From: Hymenobacter sp.
Lineage (GTDB): Bacteria; Bacteroidota; Bacteroidia; Cytophagales; Hymenobacteraceae
Length of the DNA: 38,980 bases
Direction of reading: 5' to 3'
Assembly (NCBI GenBank): GCA_025354605.1
Contig: JANXMN010000137.1
Span: 1 to 38,980, forward strand
Each line of letters starts with the position of its first letter. Position 1 is the stretch's first letter. This document shows, piece by piece, positions 4,989 to 36,634 of this stretch. Below the pieces are notes generated by a model. The model was not told the origin of the DNA, searched no databases, and worked only from the letters and a program-made list of their open reading frames with translations. A program made the translations under genes and the position numbers.

Positions 4989-5348
4989 ATGGCACTACCG
5001 AAAAAAGGGCTCCGGAAAATCACAGTTGATAATTTTCGCTATGCCTGGAGTGCTACCGGAAATGATGGAGACATCAATGTATCGGTAGCTCCCCTGGATA
5101 ATGTGGGGCAGTTACTTTCCACAGCTTTTGGCTACCATAGCAGCGTAGTGGCACCATTAGTAAGAGAGGACGGACTGGTGATAGGATACTCGCTAAAACA
5201 ACAGCTGACCATTACGCCCTATATCATTCGGCAGGTTATCCAGTACGCGTTAGGCCTGGGCTGGAATCCCAAGGAAAAAGGCGCCCAATTCAATGTGCCC
5301 GGCATTGAGGAAAAAATCGATTTAAGGCTACCTGGTGAGAATCGATAA
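4989..5348 (+). CDS. Unknown small protein, first gene of a three-gene cassette
   Basis: 119 aa from ATG 4989 (the frame also opens at a TTG at 4971). It begins with a basic patch (MALPKKGLRKITVDNFRY) and continues as a compact alpha/beta-looking protein with no signal peptide, membrane segment or catalytic motif I recognise. The last third contains ITPYIIRQVIQYALGLGW and ends EEKIDLRLPGENR. Its stop overlaps the GTG start of the next gene by 14 bp, so translation is probably coupled. Base composition is visibly less GC-rich than the surrounding housekeeping genes, which together with the compact layout suggests a mobile or accessory module. Function unknown; a toxin-antitoxin or defence role is possible but unsupported. 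Confidence 0.7.
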   Translation: MALPKKGLRKITVDNFRYAWSATGNDGDINVSVAPLDNVGQLLSTAFGYHSSVVAPLVREDGLVIGYSLKQQLTITPYIIRQVIQYALGLGWNPKEKGAQFNVPGIEEKIDLRLPGENR

Positions 5349-30877: not shown

Positions 30878-31627
30878 ATGACCAACACGCTCACCGGAAA
30901 AGTGGCCCTCATCACGGGCGCTTCCAAAGGAATTGGCCGCGCTATCGCGGCGCATTTTGCCCAGCTCGGCGCCGATGTCGCCTTCACCTACCTTTCCTCG
31001 GTCGAGAAAGGTCAGGCCCTTGAAACCGAGCTGGCCGCCCACGGCTCGAAGGTGAAAGGCTACCGCTCCGACGCCTCCGACTACGCCCAGGCCGAAAAGC
31101 TCGTCGAGGACGTACTGGCTGACTTTGGCAAGCTCGACATCCTCGTCAACAACGCCGGCATCACCCAGGACGGCCTCCTTATGCGCATGAGCGAGCAGCA
31201 GTGGGACCAAGTGATGAACGTCAACCTCAAGTCAGTGTTCAACCTCACCAAGGCCGCTACCAAGCCCATGATGCGCGCCAAGGCCGGCTCCATCATCAAC
31301 ATGACCAGCGTGGTGGGCATCAAGGGCAACGCCGGGCAGGCCAACTACGCCGCCAGCAAGGCCGGCATCATCGGCTTCACCAAGTCGGTGGCCCTGGAGC
31401 TGGGCTCGCGCAACATCCGCTGCAACGCCATTGCCCCCGGCTTCATCGAAACCGAAATGACCGACGCCCTCGACCCCAAGCAAGTCGACGAATGGCGCAA
31501 GGCCATCCCGCTCAAGCGCGGCGGCCGCCCAGAGGACGTGGCCAAGGCCACGGCGTTTCTGGCTTCGAATGATTCGGCCTACATCACCGGCCAGGTGCTG
31601 CAGGTGGATGGTGGAATGCTGACGTAG
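30878..31627 (+). CDS. fabG: 3-oxoacyl-[acyl-carrier-protein] reductase
   Basis: 249 aa from ATG 30878. Classical short-chain dehydrogenase: TGASKGIG cofactor loop (13-20), LDILVNNAG (86-94), catalytic Ser144 in INMTSVVG, and Tyr157-x-x-x-Lys161 in ANYAASKAG. IRCNAIAPGFIETEMTDAL and the end GQVLQVDGGMLT are typical of FabG rather than other SDRs. It carries out the NADPH-dependent reduction step of fatty-acid elongation in the cytoplasm. Other fab genes are not adjacent, so a different SDR substrate cannot be fully excluded. It starts 30 bp after the palindromic element. Confidence 0.92.
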   Translation: MTNTLTGKVALITGASKGIGRAIAAHFAQLGADVAFTYLSSVEKGQALETELAAHGSKVKGYRSDASDYAQAEKLVEDVLADFGKLDILVNNAGITQDGLLMRMSEQQWDQVMNVNLKSVFNLTKAATKPMMRAKAGSIINMTSVVGIKGNAGQANYAASKAGIIGFTKSVALELGSRNIRCNAIAPGFIETEMTDALDPKQVDEWRKAIPLKRGGRPEDVAKATAFLASNDSAYITGQVLQVDGGMLT

Positions 31628-31632
31628 GGACG

Positions 31633-32415
31633 ATGGCCACGCCGAAAGAACACGCCGCACATAATGCCGAAGCAGAGAAGCGGATTCTCAGCGACGTAGA
31701 GGAGCATGGGTTTCACATTGCTTTATTCAACGGTGATGGCTACTCGCCCAGCTTTGCTTATACAATCGGGCTATATAAAACGTATGGCTACCCAGAGCTT
31801 ATTTGCTTTGGATTTGGTCTGGATTTACTTCATTCGGTGCTATGGGAGGGCAAAGGGCTTCTGGATAAGCAGCCCAAGCCTGCCCCTGGTGTTGGATACC
31901 CTGATTTCCTAGAAGGCTTCGATGTTCGGTTTATAACCGTTGATGAAGCTCGTTATCAGGACTATTTCGGCTATGCCGCATGGTTTTATGAAAGCTGGGA
32001 TTTTCCGGCTTTGCAACTCGTGTGGCCGGATAAACAGGCGCTATATCCTTGGGACGAAGGCTTCAATCCCGATTGGAAAGCTGCTCAACCGCTCCTAGAC
32101 CGGGACAATGATTTCAAGTTTCGGGAAGAGCGAAATTTAGGTGTCTATACAACCCGCCAAGTTTTAGAAGGCTCCCCTATCTTACGTGTCGCCCATAACA
32201 GCGACGGCGACTGGCAGTTTCTATGCGACACAACGACCGATGTAGCAGACCTTAAAGTTGTTTGTCTGGAGCACATCGTAAAGAGGGACAGTTTAGTCAA
32301 TGAGCTTTTTCAACTTAAATACGGTTGGACCGCATGGCGGGAAACACCAGAGGCTGATTGGGAAACATGGGAAGACGCTGACGAAGAGGAAGACTCGGAG
32401 GAAGCTGACACATGA
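31633..32415 (+). CDS. DUF4262 domain protein
   Basis: 260 aa, start ATG 31633, five bases after fabG. The N-terminal half matches the DUF4262 pattern: ILSDVEEHGFHIALFNGDGY SPSFAYTIGLYKTYGYPELI CFGF. The second half includes WDFPALQLVWPDKQALYPWD and a very acidic tail (EDADEEEDSEEADT). No membrane or signal segment. Its DNA is clearly less GC-rich than fabG before it and yiiX after it and uses rarer codons for this window, suggesting separate acquisition. The stop overlaps the start of the next gene in ATGA. Function of DUF4262 is unknown to me. Confidence 0.85.
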   Translation: MATPKEHAAHNAEAEKRILSDVEEHGFHIALFNGDGYSPSFAYTIGLYKTYGYPELICFGFGLDLLHSVLWEGKGLLDKQPKPAPGVGYPDFLEGFDVRFITVDEARYQDYFGYAAWFYESWDFPALQLVWPDKQALYPWDEGFNPDWKAAQPLLDRDNDFKFREERNLGVYTTRQVLEGSPILRVAHNSDGDWQFLCDTTTDVADLKVVCLEHIVKRDSLVNELFQLKYGWTAWRETPEADWETWEDADEEEDSEEADT

Positions 32416-33089
32416 AACGCCGGCAGTTCCTCCCCTTCCTCCTACTCGCTAGCCTAGCCCTGACCGCCTACCCGCGCCTGCACCGCCGCCTGCTCCGCTA
32501 CCAAAGCCACCGCGCCGCTGCCACCACCACAGCCCAAATTGAGCCCCAACTCCACGAGGGCGACCTGATTTTCCACACCTCCCAATCGGCGCAGAGCCAA
32601 GCCATTCAGCTGGCCACCCACTCGCACTGGAGCCATTGCGGCATCGTGTACCAGCAAGGTGGTCAATGGCAGGTGTTCGAAGCGGTGCAGCCGGTGAAGC
32701 TGACGCCGCTGGTAGACTGGGTGGCGCGGGGGCAGGGCGGCCACTTCGTAACCAAGCGACTGCGCGATGCGGCCACGGCCCTCACGCCCGCCGCCCTGGC
32801 CCGCCTGAAAGCGGCCGGCCAGCCCATGCTGGGGCATCACTACGACCTGTACTTCGGCTGGAGTGACGACCGGATTTACTGCTCCGAGCTCATCTGGAAA
32901 GTGTATGCGCGCGGGCTGGGCCGACGGCTGGGGCAGCTCCAGCAGCTACGCGATTTCGACCTGAGCCATCCCGCCGTGCAGGCCAAGCTGCGCGAGCGCT
33001 ACGGCGCGCACCTGCCGCTGGCCGATACGGTCATTTCGCCGGTGAGCATCTTCGAGAGTCCCGAACTGGTGACGGTGCTTAATCGTTGA
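32412..33089 (+). CDS. YiiX-family permuted papain-like cysteine hydrolase
   Basis: 225 aa starting at ATG 32412 in an ATGA overlap with DUF4262. The N-terminus MKRRQFLPFLLLASLALTAY is a signal peptide or membrane anchor. The YiiX/NlpC-P60-related core has GDLIFHTSQSAQSQAIQLAT, the His motif HSHWSHCGIVY (His75), QVFEAVQPVKLTPL, and the Cys motif DDRIYCSELIWKVY (Cys157), the permuted order (His before Cys) expected for this family. The end DTVISPVSIFESPELVTVL is also family-like. It is probably a cell-envelope amidase or peptidase. A diverged copy of its last 62 bp lies at 33746-33807, beyond hicBA. Confidence 0.88.
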   Translation: MKRRQFLPFLLLASLALTAYPRLHRRLLRYQSHRAAATTTAQIEPQLHEGDLIFHTSQSAQSQAIQLATHSHWSHCGIVYQQGGQWQVFEAVQPVKLTPLVDWVARGQGGHFVTKRLRDAATALTPAALARLKAAGQPMLGHHYDLYFGWSDDRIYCSELIWKVYARGLGRRLGQLQQLRDFDLSHPAVQAKLRERYGAHLPLADTVISPVSIFESPELVTVLNR

Positions 33090-33094
33090 CGTCC

Positions 33095-33424
33095 CTACAC
33101 GAAGTGCTGCACGGCTTCCACGACTAATTGGTTCAGGCTCATGTTGCGCTCACGGGAGGCCAGCGCGGCGCGGCGGTGCAGTTCCGGCTGCATCCGCACG
33201 TTGAAGCTGCCTTTGAAGGGCTTTTCGGGTTGCTTGCCAGTGGTGGCGCAGAGGGTCAGGTAGTCCTCTACGGCTTCCACGAAGGCATTTTCTAACTCCT
33301 CGACGGTATTGCCTTCAAAAGAAATCAAGTCGGTGATGTCGTCCAGCTTGCCGAAAAACACCCTGTCTTCGGCGCTGAATTCGACGCGGGCGGTATAGCC
33401 GCCGTGTTTCAAAACGCTGCTCAT
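33095..33424 (-). CDS. hicB: HicB-family antitoxin
   Basis: 109 aa. The N-terminal partial RNase-H-like HicB fold is seen in GYTARVEFSAEDRVFFGKLD, then DLISFEGNTVEELENAFVEA VEDYL. The C-terminal part is an Arc/ribbon-helix-helix-like DNA-binding segment: GSFNVRMQPELHRRAALASR, NMSLNQLVVEAVQHFV. It overlaps the end of hicA by 4 bp (ATGA), so the order is toxin first, antitoxin second, usual for hicAB. It neutralises HicA and represses its own operon by family knowledge. The stop is only 5 bp from the convergent yiiX stop. Confidence 0.9.
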   Translation of the reverse strand: MSSVLKHGGYTARVEFSAEDRVFFGKLDDITDLISFEGNTVEELENAFVEAVEDYLTLCATTGKQPEKPFKGSFNVRMQPELHRRAALASRERNMSLNQLVVEAVQHFV

Positions 33425-33675
33425 GTGGTGGCGATGTTAAGTTGCTGAATCAGCTGTTTGAGCTGGTATTGCTTGAGAGTGTTGCCGGGATGCGGCTTGT
33501 GCAAACGAATAATAACGCCGGTTTCAGCTTTCACGAAGGCGCGGCGGCTACCGCCGGTTTTGCCGGCGGCCTGTTCTACGTAGCCCAACTGCCGAAGCAC
33601 CCGCAACAGCTCGTCCCAGGTAAAGTCGGCGGGCTGGCTCAGCAGCCGGGCCAGGAGTTTATCATTTTTGCTCAT
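33421..33675 (-). CDS. hicA: HicA-family mRNA interferase toxin
   Basis: 84 aa from ATG 33675 (MSKNDKLLARLLSQPADFTW); an in-frame start at 33705 is possible. The dsRBD-like HicA fold has DELLRVLRQLGYVEQAAGKT, then GGSRRAFVKAETGVIIRLHK and PHPGNTLKQYQLKQLIQQL. In classical HicA the catalytic His follows GS (GSH); here the position is Arg and the conserved His lie in LHKPHPG, as I recall for the GSRxRF...HRPHP subfamily. It should cleave mRNA when freed from HicB. It is transcribed away from the second toxin-antitoxin pair at 33852. Confidence 0.88.
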   Translation of the reverse strand: MSKNDKLLARLLSQPADFTWDELLRVLRQLGYVEQAAGKTGGSRRAFVKAETGVIIRLHKPHPGNTLKQYQLKQLIQQLNIATT

Positions 33676-33745
33676 GCAACGCTGGCGACTGTTTTCCAGT
33701 TGCACGAAGTTACATTGACTAGCTGGTACTGCTGGCTCGTCCGAA

Positions 33746-33807
33746 ACGGTTATTTCGCCGGTGAGCCTCTTCAGGAGTCCCGAACTGGTGATGGTGCTTA
33801 GTCGTTA
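33746..33807 (+). pseudogene. Diverged duplicate of the yiiX 3' end
   Basis: These 62 bases match 33027-33088, the last codons of yiiX, at about 55 of 62 positions without gaps. Shared runs include ATTTCGCCGGTGAGC and GAGTCCCGAACTGGTGA. The upstream bases (CTGCTGGCTCGTCCGAA) also resemble the matching part of yiiX. No start codon or full frame is present. The hicBA module lies exactly between the two copies. Confidence 0.85.
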
Positions 33808-33851
33808 GCAATAGCCGGCCTGCGTAACTTGCCGGACCTAACCGGTTGCTT

Positions 33852-34094
33852 ATGTCCATGCTCACGCTCACCTTCGACGACAAATTAGCCAGCCAGGCCC
33901 AGGAGTACGCCCGGCGCACGGGCACCGACATGTCGGTGCTGGTAGCTGAGCTGCTGCGGCCGGTAGTAGCCACGCCTGTTAGTACTAAATCCCTGCCCCT
34001 CGAACTAGCGGCTTTGTACGGTTGCATCAGCCTGCCGCCTGGCTTCGACTATAAGGAGGAATTGGGCAAGGCACTTACCGAAAAGTATCAATGA
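33852..34094 (+). CDS. Antitoxin-like ribbon-helix-helix protein (DUF6364 type)
   Basis: 80 aa from ATG 33852 (a second ATG at 33858 would remove two residues). The opening MLTLTFDDKLASQAQEYARR TGTDMSVLVAELLRPV is the beta-strand plus two-helix DNA-binding pattern of small antitoxins that pair with PIN toxins. The tail (LPPGFDYKEELGKALTEKYQ) would be the toxin-wrapping part. It overlaps the PIN gene by 4 bp (ATGA). By family knowledge it should repress its own promoter and inactivate the PIN ribonuclease. Confidence 0.82.
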   Translation: MSMLTLTFDDKLASQAQEYARRTGTDMSVLVAELLRPVVATPVSTKSLPLELAALYGCISLPPGFDYKEELGKALTEKYQ

Positions 34095-34516
34095 GGCAAT
34101 ACTTGCTTGATACCAATGTCCTCATTGATTACCTGGCACGGCGGGCACCCTTTGGCGAAGACGCGACCGAGTTGCTGCAGGCGGGTGTATCGGACGAGGC
34201 CCGTTTTCACGTGGCCAGCTTGTCTTTTGCCAACATCGAATCCATTATGCGGCGGCAAACATCAGCCACGCAGGCCCGGCAGTTGCTGGTGTGGCTGGAG
34301 CAACTAGTGGAAATTCTGCCCGTCGATGCGGCAGTTATTCGCCAGGCCCTGGCCAGTAGCTTCACCGACTTTGAAAATGCGATTCAGCATTTTGTCGCGT
34401 TGGCCCACCCTGCCGTTAATGCCATCATCACCTACGGCCCGAAAGGCTTTCGTGGCAGCGTGCTACCTGTTCTCTCCGCGGCCCAGGCCCTTACCGAACT
34501 CGACAATCCTGCCTGA
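34091..34516 (+). CDS. PIN-domain ribonuclease toxin (VapC-like)
   Basis: 141 aa from ATG 34091, coupled to the antitoxin by ATGA. PIN acidic residues are in place: LLDTNVLIDYLARR (D7), FANIESIMRR (E50) and SFTDFENAIQHF (D93, E95). The last part ITYGPKGFRGSVLPVLSAAQ corresponds to the usual ITRNxKDF segment, with the final Asp of the quartet not conserved (K-G-F). It likely cleaves tRNA or other RNA. Together with hicBA this gives two toxin-antitoxin modules within 1.4 kb, transcribed away from each other. Confidence 0.88.
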   Translation: MRQYLLDTNVLIDYLARRAPFGEDATELLQAGVSDEARFHVASLSFANIESIMRRQTSATQARQLLVWLEQLVEILPVDAAVIRQALASSFTDFENAIQHFVALAHPAVNAIITYGPKGFRGSVLPVLSAAQALTELDNPA

Positions 34517-34552
34517 CCCACGGCGAGCCTCCCGTTGCTATTTTACTGACTT

Positions 34553-36634
34553 TTGCTGACCACTTCCTACTCTCCCTGGTTTATCCTGCTTTGCCTGGCC
34601 GTGGGCGCGGGCTACGCGGCCCTGCAATACTCGGCCAAAGCGCCTTGGGGCCACCGGCTGAACTACGCGCTGGCGGCTTTGCGCTTCGCCGTGGTGAGCT
34701 TCCTGTGCTACCTGCTGCTCGCCCCGGTCATCAAAACCACCACCACGCACACCGAAGCCCCCACCGTGGTGCTGGCCGTCGATAACTCGCAGTCGGTGGA
34801 GCTGTTTACGCCTAAAAACGTACTCAGCCAGGCCAATAATGGCCTCGCCAAGCTGGCCGAAACCCTGCGCGGCCGGGGCTTCACCGTCGACACCCGGACC
34901 CTTACGGCCACACCCAGCCGCCCGGCCCGGCTCGACTCGCTGCGCTTCACGGCCCCCGGCACCGACCTCGACCAGCTGCTGGCCGGCACCGGCGACGCCT
35001 ACGATGGCCGCAACCTAGCCGGGGTAGTGCTCGTGAGCGACGGCCTCGTGAACCAGGGCCGCAGCCCGGCCTACTCCGAATTCAGCTTCCCGATTTACAG
35101 CGTGGCCCTGGGCGACACCATCCCCAAAAAAGACCTGCGCCTGACCGGTCTGAGCTACAACCGCGTCGCCTTCAGCGGCAATAAATTTCCCATCGAGGCC
35201 GAGCTGGGCTTCGAGGGCTACGCGGGCGGCGCGGCCACCGTGGAGCTGCGCGAGGGCGGCCGGGTGCTCGATAGCCGCCGCGTGGCCCTGCCCGCCGGCC
35301 GCCGCCGGGTACGCACCACCTTCCAAATCACCGCGCCCGCGCCGGGCAAACGCCGCTACGAGGTGCGCATCGCGGCCCAGCCCGGCGAGTTCACGGCCCT
35401 CAACAACCAGCGGACGGCCTTCGTCGACATCGTGAAGGGCAAGCTGCGGGTGCTGCTGGCCGGGGCCGCCCCCCACCCCGACCTTAAGGCCCTGCGCGCC
35501 GCCATCCGGGCCAACGACAACTTCGACCTGACCCTGGCCCTGCCCGGGGTGGAGCCGCTCAAGGCCGGCACCGATTTCGACGTGGCCATTCTGCACCAGC
35601 TGCCGGCCCAGGGCGGGCTGGGCAACGACCTGCTGGCCCAGGTGCAGGCCCGCAAAACACCGACCTTCTACATTCTGGGGGCGCAGTCGGACCTGGCAGC
35701 CTACAACCAGCTCGGCGCCGGCCTCATTATCCAACCGCGCGGGGCACAAACCGACGAGGTGACGCCGCTGCCCAACCCCGGCTTCGCCCGCTTCGCGACC
35801 GACGAGGAATCGACCCGCCGCTTCGCGCAGTACCCGCCCGCGCCGGTGCCCTTCGGCGACTACCGTCTGGGGCCCGGGGCCGAGGCCGCCCTCTGGCAGC
35901 AGGTGGACCGGGTGCCCACCCAGAAGCCCCTGCTGGTGTTTGGCGGCCCGGCCGAGCGCCGGCAGGCCACGCTGCTCACCGATGGCAGCTGGCAGTGGCG
36001 CCTGACCGAGGCCGTGGCCCACGACGACCAGCCCGAAGCCTACGACCGCCTCATCATCCGCACGCTTCAGCTGCTCACCCAGAACGCCAACAAGAAGCGC
36101 CTCGACGTGTACCCCACCCAGGACGCCTTCGGTACCCAGGACGACGTGATGCTGGGGGCCGAAGCCTACAACGCCGTGTTCGAGCGCCTCTACAACCAGA
36201 AAATCGACCTGGTGCTGACCGACGAAAAGCAGCAGGCCCGCCGCTTCTCGTTTGCCAACGCCGAGGACGGCTCGCCCCTGCACCTGGGGCCGCTGCCGGC
36301 CGGCCTGTATAAGTATCAGGCCCGCGCCACCCTCGGCGGCCAGGCCCAGCAGGATACCGGCGAGCTGCTGGTGCAATCGCAACCCCTTGAAGCTTTGGAG
36401 TCGAAGGCCGACCACAACCTGTTGGCCCAGCTGTCGCGCCGCAGCGGCTCGCGGCTGTACTACCCCGCGCAGCTCGATAAGCTGGCCCAGGATATTCTCA
36501 AAGCCAATTACAAACCGGTGATTTCGCAGGAAGAAGACCTGAAGGACCTAATTAATCAGAAGTGGCTGTTCTTCGTGCTGCTGGCTTTTCTGACGGTGGA
36601 ATGGGCCGTGCGGAAGTATGCGGGCAGCGTGTGA
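34553..36634 (+). CDS. Membrane protein with von Willebrand factor A domain
   Basis: 693 aa. No ATG is available; the start is taken at TTG 34553 (MLTTSYSPWFILLCLAVGAG). Two N-terminal membrane helices (about 8-28 and 42-60) are followed by a periplasmic vWA-like domain with VVLAVDNSQSVEL (D77-x-S79-x-S81, the MIDAS motif) and GVVLVSDGLVNQGRSPA. The middle and C-terminal parts hold strand-rich repeats (for example KFPIEAELGFEGYAGGAATV) and a class-I glutamine-amidotransferase-like region around LRVLLAGAAPHPDLKALRAA. A C-terminal membrane helix (WLFFVLLAFLTVEWAVRKY) anchors the end. The layout is like the large vWA proteins that accompany MoxR/BatA-type systems, but no such partners are adjacent. 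Confidence 0.82.
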   Translation: MLTTSYSPWFILLCLAVGAGYAALQYSAKAPWGHRLNYALAALRFAVVSFLCYLLLAPVIKTTTTHTEAPTVVLAVDNSQSVELFTPKNVLSQANNGLAKLAETLRGRGFTVDTRTLTATPSRPARLDSLRFTAPGTDLDQLLAGTGDAYDGRNLAGVVLVSDGLVNQGRSPAYSEFSFPIYSVALGDTIPKKDLRLTGLSYNRVAFSGNKFPIEAELGFEGYAGGAATVELREGGRVLDSRRVALPAGRRRVRTTFQITAPAPGKRRYEVRIAAQPGEFTALNNQRTAFVDIVKGKLRVLLAGAAPHPDLKALRAAIRANDNFDLTLALPGVEPLKAGTDFDVAILHQLPAQGGLGNDLLAQVQARKTPTFYILGAQSDLAAYNQLGAGLIIQPRGAQTDEVTPLPNPGFARFATDEESTRRFAQYPPAPVPFGDYRLGPGAEAALWQQVDRVPTQKPLLVFGGPAERRQATLLTDGSWQWRLTEAVAHDDQPEAYDRLIIRTLQLLTQNANKKRLDVYPTQDAFGTQDDVMLGAEAYNAVFERLYNQKIDLVLTDEKQQARRFSFANAEDGSPLHLGPLPAGLYKYQARATLGGQAQQDTGELLVQSQPLEALESKADHNLLAQLSRRSGSRLYYPAQLDKLAQDILKANYKPVISQEEDLKDLINQKWLFFVLLAFLTVEWAVRKYAGSV

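Follow-up and report, generated by a model that had tools for sequence, protein, structure and literature searches.

Behind the yiiX gene of the window (the entire 38,980-nt stretch of Hymenobacter DNA analyzed here) lie the predicted toxin-antitoxin genes hicBA and then a second copy of the yiiX 3' end. This raises the question of how the end of a gene came to stand on both sides of a module while the gene itself remained whole. The initial annotation proposed either that an ancestral tandem duplication of yiiX lost most of its second copy when hicBA came in or that hicBA arrived with a piece of another yiiX and integrated by homologous recombination at the gene end, leaving yiiX intact.

Two copies of the yiiX 3' end bracket hicBA

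The last 62 bases of yiiX (33027 to 33088) recur at 33746 to 33807 with 55 of 62 positions identical, confirming the identity of about 89% reported initially. The bracketing of hicBA by the two ends, which are 719 bases apart, was also confirmed, as was the 5-bp interval between the yiiX stop, ending at 33089, and the hicB stop, beginning at 33095. The yiiX, hicB, and hicA gene calls were upheld by family matches (NF007458/PF05708, PF05534, and PF07927, respectively). The best ungapped block pairs 33022 to 33087 with 33741 to 33806 (59/66 identical), and alignment to Hymenobacter arizonensis (G102) extends the downstream copy leftward to 33735. Comparison of the 68-nt yiiX tail with both strands of the whole window gave a best other ungapped match of 35/68. 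In a search of the whole genome with the yiiX tail, the downstream copy was recovered with an E value of 8.5e-19, and the next match was 17 nt long (E value of 0.1). The upstream and downstream ends are designated copies A and B, respectively, in the following list of features.

30878 to 31627, plus strand: fabG, left flank (TIGR01830, E value of 1.2e-102).
31633 to 32415, plus strand: DUF4262 gene, variable cargo (PF14081, E value of 1.8e-33); matched in 14 of 97 loci, always between fabG and yiiX.
32412 to 33089, plus strand: yiiX, permuted papain-like amidase (C92), intact anchor gene (NF007458, E value of 4e-79, above cut-off; PF05708, E value of 2e-27).
33022 to 33089, plus strand: copy A, functional yiiX 3' end with a TGA stop, colinear with G036 through hicBA (window 32955 to 33712, 75%).
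33095 to 33424, minus strand: predicted hicB antitoxin gene, cargo X (PF05534, E value of 8.6e-19; amino acid identity of 87% with G148 and 81% with G036).
33421 to 33672, minus strand: predicted hicA toxin gene, cargo X (PF07927, E value of 8.8e-12); an alternative, longer form with a GTG start at 33705 is possible.
33713 to 33734, no strand: junction zone; blastn homology to hicBA ends at 33708 (G148) or 33712 (G036), and yiiX homology to G102 begins at 33735.
33735 to 33808, plus strand: copy B, putative displaced original yiiX 3' end with an in-frame TAG, delimited by alignment to G102 and by comparison with copy A.
33809 to 33851, plus strand: native yiiX-vapB spacer, common to G102 and, in part, to G038.
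33852 to 34094, plus strand: VapB-like antitoxin gene (DUF6364), putatively older cargo Y (PF19891, E value of 9.6e-12).
34091 to 34516, plus strand: VapC-like PIN-domain toxin gene, putatively older cargo Y (PF13470, E value of 3.1e-13).
34553 to 36634, plus strand: vwa, conserved right flank, behind yiiX in 84 of 97 loci, with no Pfam or NCBIfam match.

The HicA and HicB domains scored above the Pfam cut-offs and are encoded by adjacent, overlapping genes on one strand; from these domains and this gene arrangement, hicBA is predicted to be a type II toxin-antitoxin pair. Copy B keeps its in-frame TAG stop and is followed by the VapBC-like pair (33852 to 34516), two features that the initial annotation did not mention. 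The name vwa is only a working label for the gene at 34553 to 36634. The DUF4262 gene overlaps the yiiX start by 4 nt, and a second variable site lies between fabG and yiiX. The source assembly is fragmented (601 contigs), with 5.75% contamination.

The yiiX-vwa interval has a variable content

Matches to yiiX, some of them partial, were found in 95 of 120 genomes of the genus. The 97 loci analyzed comprised these 95 and two from the order; the order-level genomes G071, G074, G080, G087, G092, and G095 were left out. Besides H. arizonensis, the relatives mentioned below include Hymenobacter sp. BT18 (G114), H. citatus (G060), H. fodinae (G018), H. sediminis (G056), and H. latericoloratus (G112). 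The usual gene order is fabG, the DUF4262 gene where present, yiiX, variable content, and vwa. The distance between yiiX and vwa was <100 nt in 20 of the 97 loci (empty sites) and 181 to 8,768 nt in 64 (cargo-bearing sites), vwa being out of reach in the remaining 13. Mechanical calling of open reading frames (ORFs) of at least 70 residues in the cargo of the 64 loci gave 129 ORFs in 59 families, including 38 singletons. Of 20 cargo proteins scanned against Pfam, 12 were assigned to a family and 8 were not; 19 of the 20 had no match to a mobile-element family, the exception being a tyrosine recombinase of G142. That recombinase gene (PF00589; locus L111, 3953 to 5038) shares its interval with pta and ackA, homologues of which also occur as ORFs in the yiiX-vwa intervals of G002 and G137. 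The interval of G116 (L135) contains an ORF of the same length as the recombinase ORF.

RNA genes were considered as an insertion target and rejected, since no RNA family was found in positions 31000 to 36000 and no tRNA in the window. Six proteins compared with the PADLOC defense library gave no match. The yiiX gene is split over two frames in L044 (G044), L047 (G005), L142 (G112), L143 (G126), and L144 (G156), which suggests decay or sequencing errors. An inverted repeat is found at the truncated yiiX end of L049 (G012; reverse-strand self-match score of 32.8).

The window combines two arrangements that occur separately in relatives

Positions 33735 to 34613 of the window matched G102 in a single colinear blastn alignment (883 nt, 76% identity) that runs from the yiiX tail with its TAG stop through the spacer, vapB, and vapC into the start of vwa. 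The matching tail is the genuine end of yiiX in G102, where the order is yiiX-vapBC-vwa without hicBA; yiiX is likewise followed by vapBC in G038 and G117. On the other side, positions 32955 to 33712, from the yiiX tail into hicBA, matched G036 in one colinear alignment (770 nt, 75% identity). The order in G036 is yiiX-hicBA-vwa without a second yiiX tail. The window, with the order yiiX-hicBA-[old yiiX tail]-vapBC-vwa, is thus, according to these alignments, a composite of two arrangements joined at about 33713 to 33734. Since both arrangements exist separately in relatives and copy B lies in the native vapBC context, copy B is taken to be the displaced original end of yiiX.

These results support one part of the initial proposal, in which hicBA brought along part of another yiiX and recombined at the gene end without disrupting yiiX, because both parental arrangements occur separately and copy B lies in the native yiiX-vapBC context. 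They correct it in another part, since the original end is the downstream copy rather than the upstream one. Homologous recombination can be inferred at one end of the insert, whereas the other join showed no extended homology. A second yiiX tail without a hicBA insertion would have spoken against the proposal; a hidden Markov model (HMM) of the yiiX 3' end found none in the testable empty sites, the empty site G108 having failed the HMM criterion and falling outside that check.

Copies A and B are closer to each other than to any sampled locus

Of 63 coding positions, 56 are shared by copies A and B and 7 differ. Only 2 of the 7 differences are at third codon positions, and 5 of the 6 codons affected carry nonsynonymous changes. 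In the set of 22 loci nearest by vwa (of 96), third positions accounted for 1,500 of 2,100 differences (2/7 versus 1,500/2,100, Fisher P = 0.024, with nonindependent pairs), and copy A had at least 7 third-position differences from each of the 22. The closest tail among the 96 other loci shared 54/63 positions with copy A and 52/63 with copy B, below the 56/63 of the A-B pair. The comparison of divergence advocated in the initial annotation was thus carried out and showed that the two copies are closer to each other than to any sampled locus. This closeness, together with the third-position pattern, suggests that the pair is younger than the splits of the sampled species. The third-position pattern and the nonsynonymous codons further suggest that copy B is not under coding selection and that its changes resemble those of noncoding DNA.

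Against hicBA-bearing G036, copies A and B matched at 42/64 and 37/64 positions, respectively, and against G102 the values were 52 and 50. Copy B was no closer than copy A to vapBC-bearing G102, G038, and G117. A distant species is not supported as the donor of the tail, because copies A and B are mutually closest and the A/B score gaps against G036 and G102 are small. No donor of copy A and of the hicBA allele was found among the analyzed relatives, and a foreign origin of copy A is unproven; the donor of the allele would be an unsampled close relative, or the tail would have been copied within the lineage. When trees were compared for discordance, neither the yiiX tree (25 loci) nor the vwa tree (26 loci) placed the window, and no left exchange point was located. 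The hicBA DNA was matched in 17 of 120 genomes of the genus, that of the window included, and the only near-full-length matches besides the window were in G036 and G148 (76 to 78%). The closest relative of hicBA (78% nucleotide identity) lies at a different site in G148, at the end of contig C675 (41 to 652), beside a gene that we read by eye as acyl-CoA-ligase-like. Searches for a mobile source among plasmids (1,106 records) and phages (13 records) gave HicB matches that were all <60% identical.

Displaced yiiX tails recur in other genomes

The search for other cargo at yiiX 3' ends, as initially recommended, revealed bracketed modules in three relatives. The yiiX 3'-end HMM detected displaced tails, here called scars, in 4 of 93 testable loci, G154 (E value of 4e-17), the window (3e-10), G060 (1e-5), and G035 (2.5e-5); four of the 97 loci failed the HMM criterion (G054, G012, G107, and G108). 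All four scars are direct and downstream, and those of G154 and G060 are eroded. They begin at positions -73 (window), -60, -148, and -114 relative to the yiiX stop and are thus all different. The initial annotation linked the process to toxin-antitoxin modules, to which it is not specific, because bracketing of this kind also surrounds other cargo. No scar was detected in 60 of the 64 cargo-bearing sites, 3 of the 60 having failed the HMM criterion.

Control HMMs for vwa 5' (0/83), vwa 3' (0/78), and GGR 3' (0/71) detected no displaced copy, nor did the smaller controls for yiiX 5' (0/20), lact 3' (0/25), NADe 3' (0/18), and GGR 5' (0/3). The fabG 3' control was positive in 1 of 83 loci (G107). 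The single fabG 5' match (1/16) was taken to be a paralogue, since it lies about 4.9 kb away on the other strand, at the position of another SDR gene. The contrast between yiiX 3' (4/93) and the combined fabG 3', vwa 5', vwa 3', and GGR 3' controls (1/315) gave a P value of 0.011, or 0.038 without the window (3/92); like the other P values given here, these were computed post hoc, once the pattern had been noticed. The contrast with vwa 5' alone was not significant (4/93 versus 0/83, P = 0.12). Weak self-matches from a pairwise scan of L112 (G152), L141 (G151), and L144 (G156) were not recovered by the HMM and were discarded for this reason; L112 is an empty site with its self-match inside vwa. 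An upstream match to yiiX in G007 was weak (E value of 0.009) and was left uncounted.

At all four scars, the gene family that comes next is found directly behind yiiX in some relatives. The scar of the window precedes vapBC, which directly follows yiiX in G102, G038, and G117. The scar of G035 precedes an ORF of 160 residues, located directly behind yiiX in G057 and G114 (2 of 6 other loci). The scar of G154 precedes an ORF labeled CGE in this analysis, located directly behind yiiX in G026, G056, G045, and G153 (4 of 10 others), and the scar of G060 is also followed by an ORF of the CGE family. Because gene families that can stand immediately behind yiiX are frequent at this site, the pattern of neighbors in G060 and G154 could partly be coincidental. 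The downstream neighbor is retained according to nucleotide alignment for the window and G102 and, with a caveat, for G035 and G114, and according to gene family only in G154 and G060. In the G035 case, the scar and the following 2.6 kb matched G114 from 52 nt ahead of its yiiX stop (83%). The caveat is that G114 retains, behind its yiiX spacer, a short sequence that matches the terminal part of the gene inserted in G035; this points to an additional exchange or deletion in G114, so that the right-hand context of G035 is not cleanly explained.

The inserted module itself occurs directly behind yiiX elsewhere for three of the four scarred loci. This is the case of hicBA in G036, of the bracketed 250-residue ORF of G035 in G018, G140, G124, and G112 (4 of 4 others, no scar detected), and of the bracketed DUF6624-TonB ORF of G154 in G157, G054, and G156 (3 of 6 others). 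The bracketed module of G060 was found behind no other yiiX among the compared loci. G124 has the same gene order as G035, with the 250-residue ORF followed by the 160-residue ORF, and no detected scar.

Proposed model for cargo stacking at yiiX

These sequence comparisons indicate that the yiiX-vwa interval is probably a site at which alternative cargo is exchanged between Hymenobacter lineages and stacked, with yiiX as the homologous anchor and an illegitimate second join. For the window, a yiiX-hicBA allele would have recombined into a chromosome carrying yiiX-vapBC-vwa. The left exchange would have occurred inside or upstream of yiiX, and the right end would have been joined without extended homology about 73 bases ahead of the recipient yiiX stop. 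The final yiiX codons of the recipient would thereby have been swapped for an equivalent end, keeping the enzyme whole, and the original tail would have been stranded between hicBA and vapBC, where it would now be drifting. The stretch lost by the recipient would be the part of yiiX replaced by the incoming copy. We infer the direction, the donor, and the route; the last would be homology-facilitated illegitimate recombination acting on linear DNA or, with an identical product, one crossover with a circular molecule.

A homologous exchange on the left combined with an illegitimate join on the right accounts for the intact enzyme, the stranded tail, the variable tail length, and the position of the new cargo beside yiiX. 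The four different scar starts are those expected of random joins and argue against one fixed crossover site. At the right join of the window, located somewhere in 33713 to 33734, no extended homology was found in comparisons with the sampled relatives. The genome encodes ComEC and DprA domains; the same searches are also positive in E. coli and are therefore weak evidence of competence.

Alternative explanations

The succession of a functional end, cargo, and a displaced end is the geometry left by integrative elements, and a tyrosine recombinase (PF00589) is encoded in the yiiX-vwa interval of G142, with an ORF of the same length in G116. An element with a site-specific recombinase could accordingly have integrated at an attachment site in the yiiX 3' end and brought a replacement end with it, hicBA being a remnant after loss of the integrase. 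We consider this unlikely, because no integrase was recognized in the 650-bp insert or in the five scanned cargo proteins of G035, G154, and G060, and because hicBA are the only recognized genes in 33090 to 33740. Moreover, the scars start at different positions rather than at a single core site, and the yiiX-hicBA arrangement of G036 and the arrangement of yiiX with the 250-residue ORF in G018, G140, and G112 have no detected second tail, unlike an integrated element. G142 and G116 themselves have no detected yiiX scar. The tandem duplication of yiiX or of its end, with later replacement of most of the second copy by hicBA, would agree with the closeness of copies A and B, which resemble each other more than they do any of the 96 other loci and whose separation seems to postdate the species splits. 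This half of the initial proposal nevertheless appears quite unlikely: it needs two events and does not predict the separate occurrence of the two arrangements. No tandem yiiX was found in the 95 yiiX-positive genomes of the 120, the double matches in G112, G044, G126, G005, and G156 being adjoining parts of one gene.

An assembly artefact, in which a mixed assembly fused contigs of two strains (yiiX-hicBA and yiiX tail-vapBC), would fit a fragmented genome with 5.75% contamination and a window that is exactly a composite of two arrangements. Such a false join is very improbable, since copies A and B, with 7 differences in 66 positions, would be a poor bridge, and since the same architecture is found within single long contigs of G035 (757 kb) and G154 (4.9 Mb). 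Exchange anchored in yiiX remains the preferred explanation, and it includes, as a rather doubtful variant within its own probability, a circle carrying a yiiX fragment and hicBA that entered by one homologous crossover in yiiX. According to the model set out in part of PMC2935791, a circle yields exactly this product without an illegitimate join. It requires a small circle, of which there is no trace here, the plasmid and phage HicB matches all falling below the 60% identity mentioned above; the sequence alone cannot tell the circular from the linear route.

Relation to known systems

Displaced gene ends have precedents in polymorphic toxins. Parts of the report of Jackson and colleagues on rhs genes (PMC2935791) describe displaced C-terminal tips to which core fragments of differing lengths remain attached and put forward a route through circles. 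As at the window, the new module lies at the 3' region of the anchor gene, and the old one lies downstream with an anchor fragment of variable length. Unlike rhs genes as portrayed there, in which the C terminus of the anchor is exchanged, YiiX has a nearly unchanged C terminus (89% between copies A and B, NF007458 equivalog), and the modules are separate genes, toxin-antitoxin pairs among them. For type VI secretion system (T6SS) effector-immunity modules of Vibrio cholerae, sections of the study of Kirchberger and colleagues (PMC5361080) propose homology-facilitated illegitimate recombination and describe a displaced effector 3' end. Upstream anchoring and the persistence of older cargo with a displaced gene 3' end are shared with these immunity arrays as described there; unlike in these arrays, no secretion effector or immunity array is shown here, and the anchor is not a known toxin. 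A route by homology-facilitated illegitimate recombination is also reported, in a portion of PMC11751169, for effectors of P. aeruginosa. Three features of displacement arrays are found at yiiX, namely, a direct anchor 3' fragment behind the newer module, a downstream neighbor retained by this fragment as detailed above, and fragments of variable length; a fourth, a polymorphic-toxin anchor with a changing C terminus, is not found. Displacement arrays are thus known for polymorphic toxins, and what is new here is an ordinary, nearly unchanged anchor enzyme combined with unrelated cargo.

Hotspots without mobile elements recombine at flanking core genes, according to parts of the work of Oliveira and colleagues (PMC5635113). 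The yiiX-vwa interval shares with them its location at one site between two conserved genes and its fast-varying content. The model outlined in those parts involves two homologous crossovers, whereas here one of the joins is nonhomologous, with a gene-end tag left behind. Sections of PMC3240628 document homology-facilitated illegitimate recombination for S. pneumoniae, A. baylyi, and P. stutzeri and indicate that it mostly involves microhomologies of 3 to 10 bp and generally a deletion of similar size. A narrow literature search returned nothing naming both homology-facilitated illegitimate recombination and toxin-antitoxin systems, or both Hymenobacter and yiiX.

Prophage e14, inserted in icd, is an integrative element that regenerates the 3' end of its target gene. 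In e14-type elements, as here, a duplicated gene end brackets the insert and the gene stays whole; unlike for these elements, no integrase was recognized and there is no fixed crossover point at yiiX.

Gene-end copies at other genes

Self-comparison of the 97 loci (1.39 Mb, 1,095 ORFs of at least 150 residues) gave 41 repeat pairs, 4 of which were examined; the other 37 were noncoding (n = 19), coding (n = 14), or other (n = 4). Copies of gene 3' ends outside genes were found for yiiX (the window and G035) and for lpxB (G099). For 5' ends, the one case (G152) was a 75% match located in and next to a single gene. The scars of G154 and G060 both went untagged as gene ends in this survey, which without the window did not prove an enrichment at yiiX (1/96 versus 1 of about 998, P = 0.17).

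In G099 (L120), the 3' end of the gene that we took to be lpxB from a reading of its protein (2614 to 2714) recurs at 5180 to 5265 (86 nt, 92% identity, 2.5 kb apart). The gene between the two copies was read by eye as presumably O-antigen-ligase-like. The displaced copy matched the near relative L232 to 15 nt beyond the stop, into native downstream sequence, whereas the match of the functional end to L232 ceased 5 nt before the stop. Among 29 loci searched, the displaced copy was more identical than the functional end in 6 of the 7 relatives matching both, over somewhat different match lengths (for example, 89% versus 85% with L232); the exception was L229 (83.8% versus 84.1%). In G107 (L145), the fabG 3' end (825 to 899) is followed by a DUF4262 gene (922 to 1653) and by a fabG fragment (1755 to 1832).

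Ordinary core genes of Hymenobacter, yiiX and at least fabG and lpxB, may tentatively be viewed as acquisition platforms that operate without a recombinase. Modules would arrive with a spare gene end, displace older ones, and leave tags recording the order of events. Gene-tail scars provide evidence that chromosomes can acquire small cargo, toxin-antitoxin pairs for instance, by recombination at a neighboring conserved gene and without a transposase or integrase belonging to the cargo, and they record the order of cargo entry. Because this geometry is found behind an ordinary enzyme gene, it could be a general outcome of hotspot recombination, and the scars offer a simple handle for finding such events in other genomes.

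In G107, yiiX itself is truncated, and the geometry of the scar at the neighboring fabG junction resembles that of the window.
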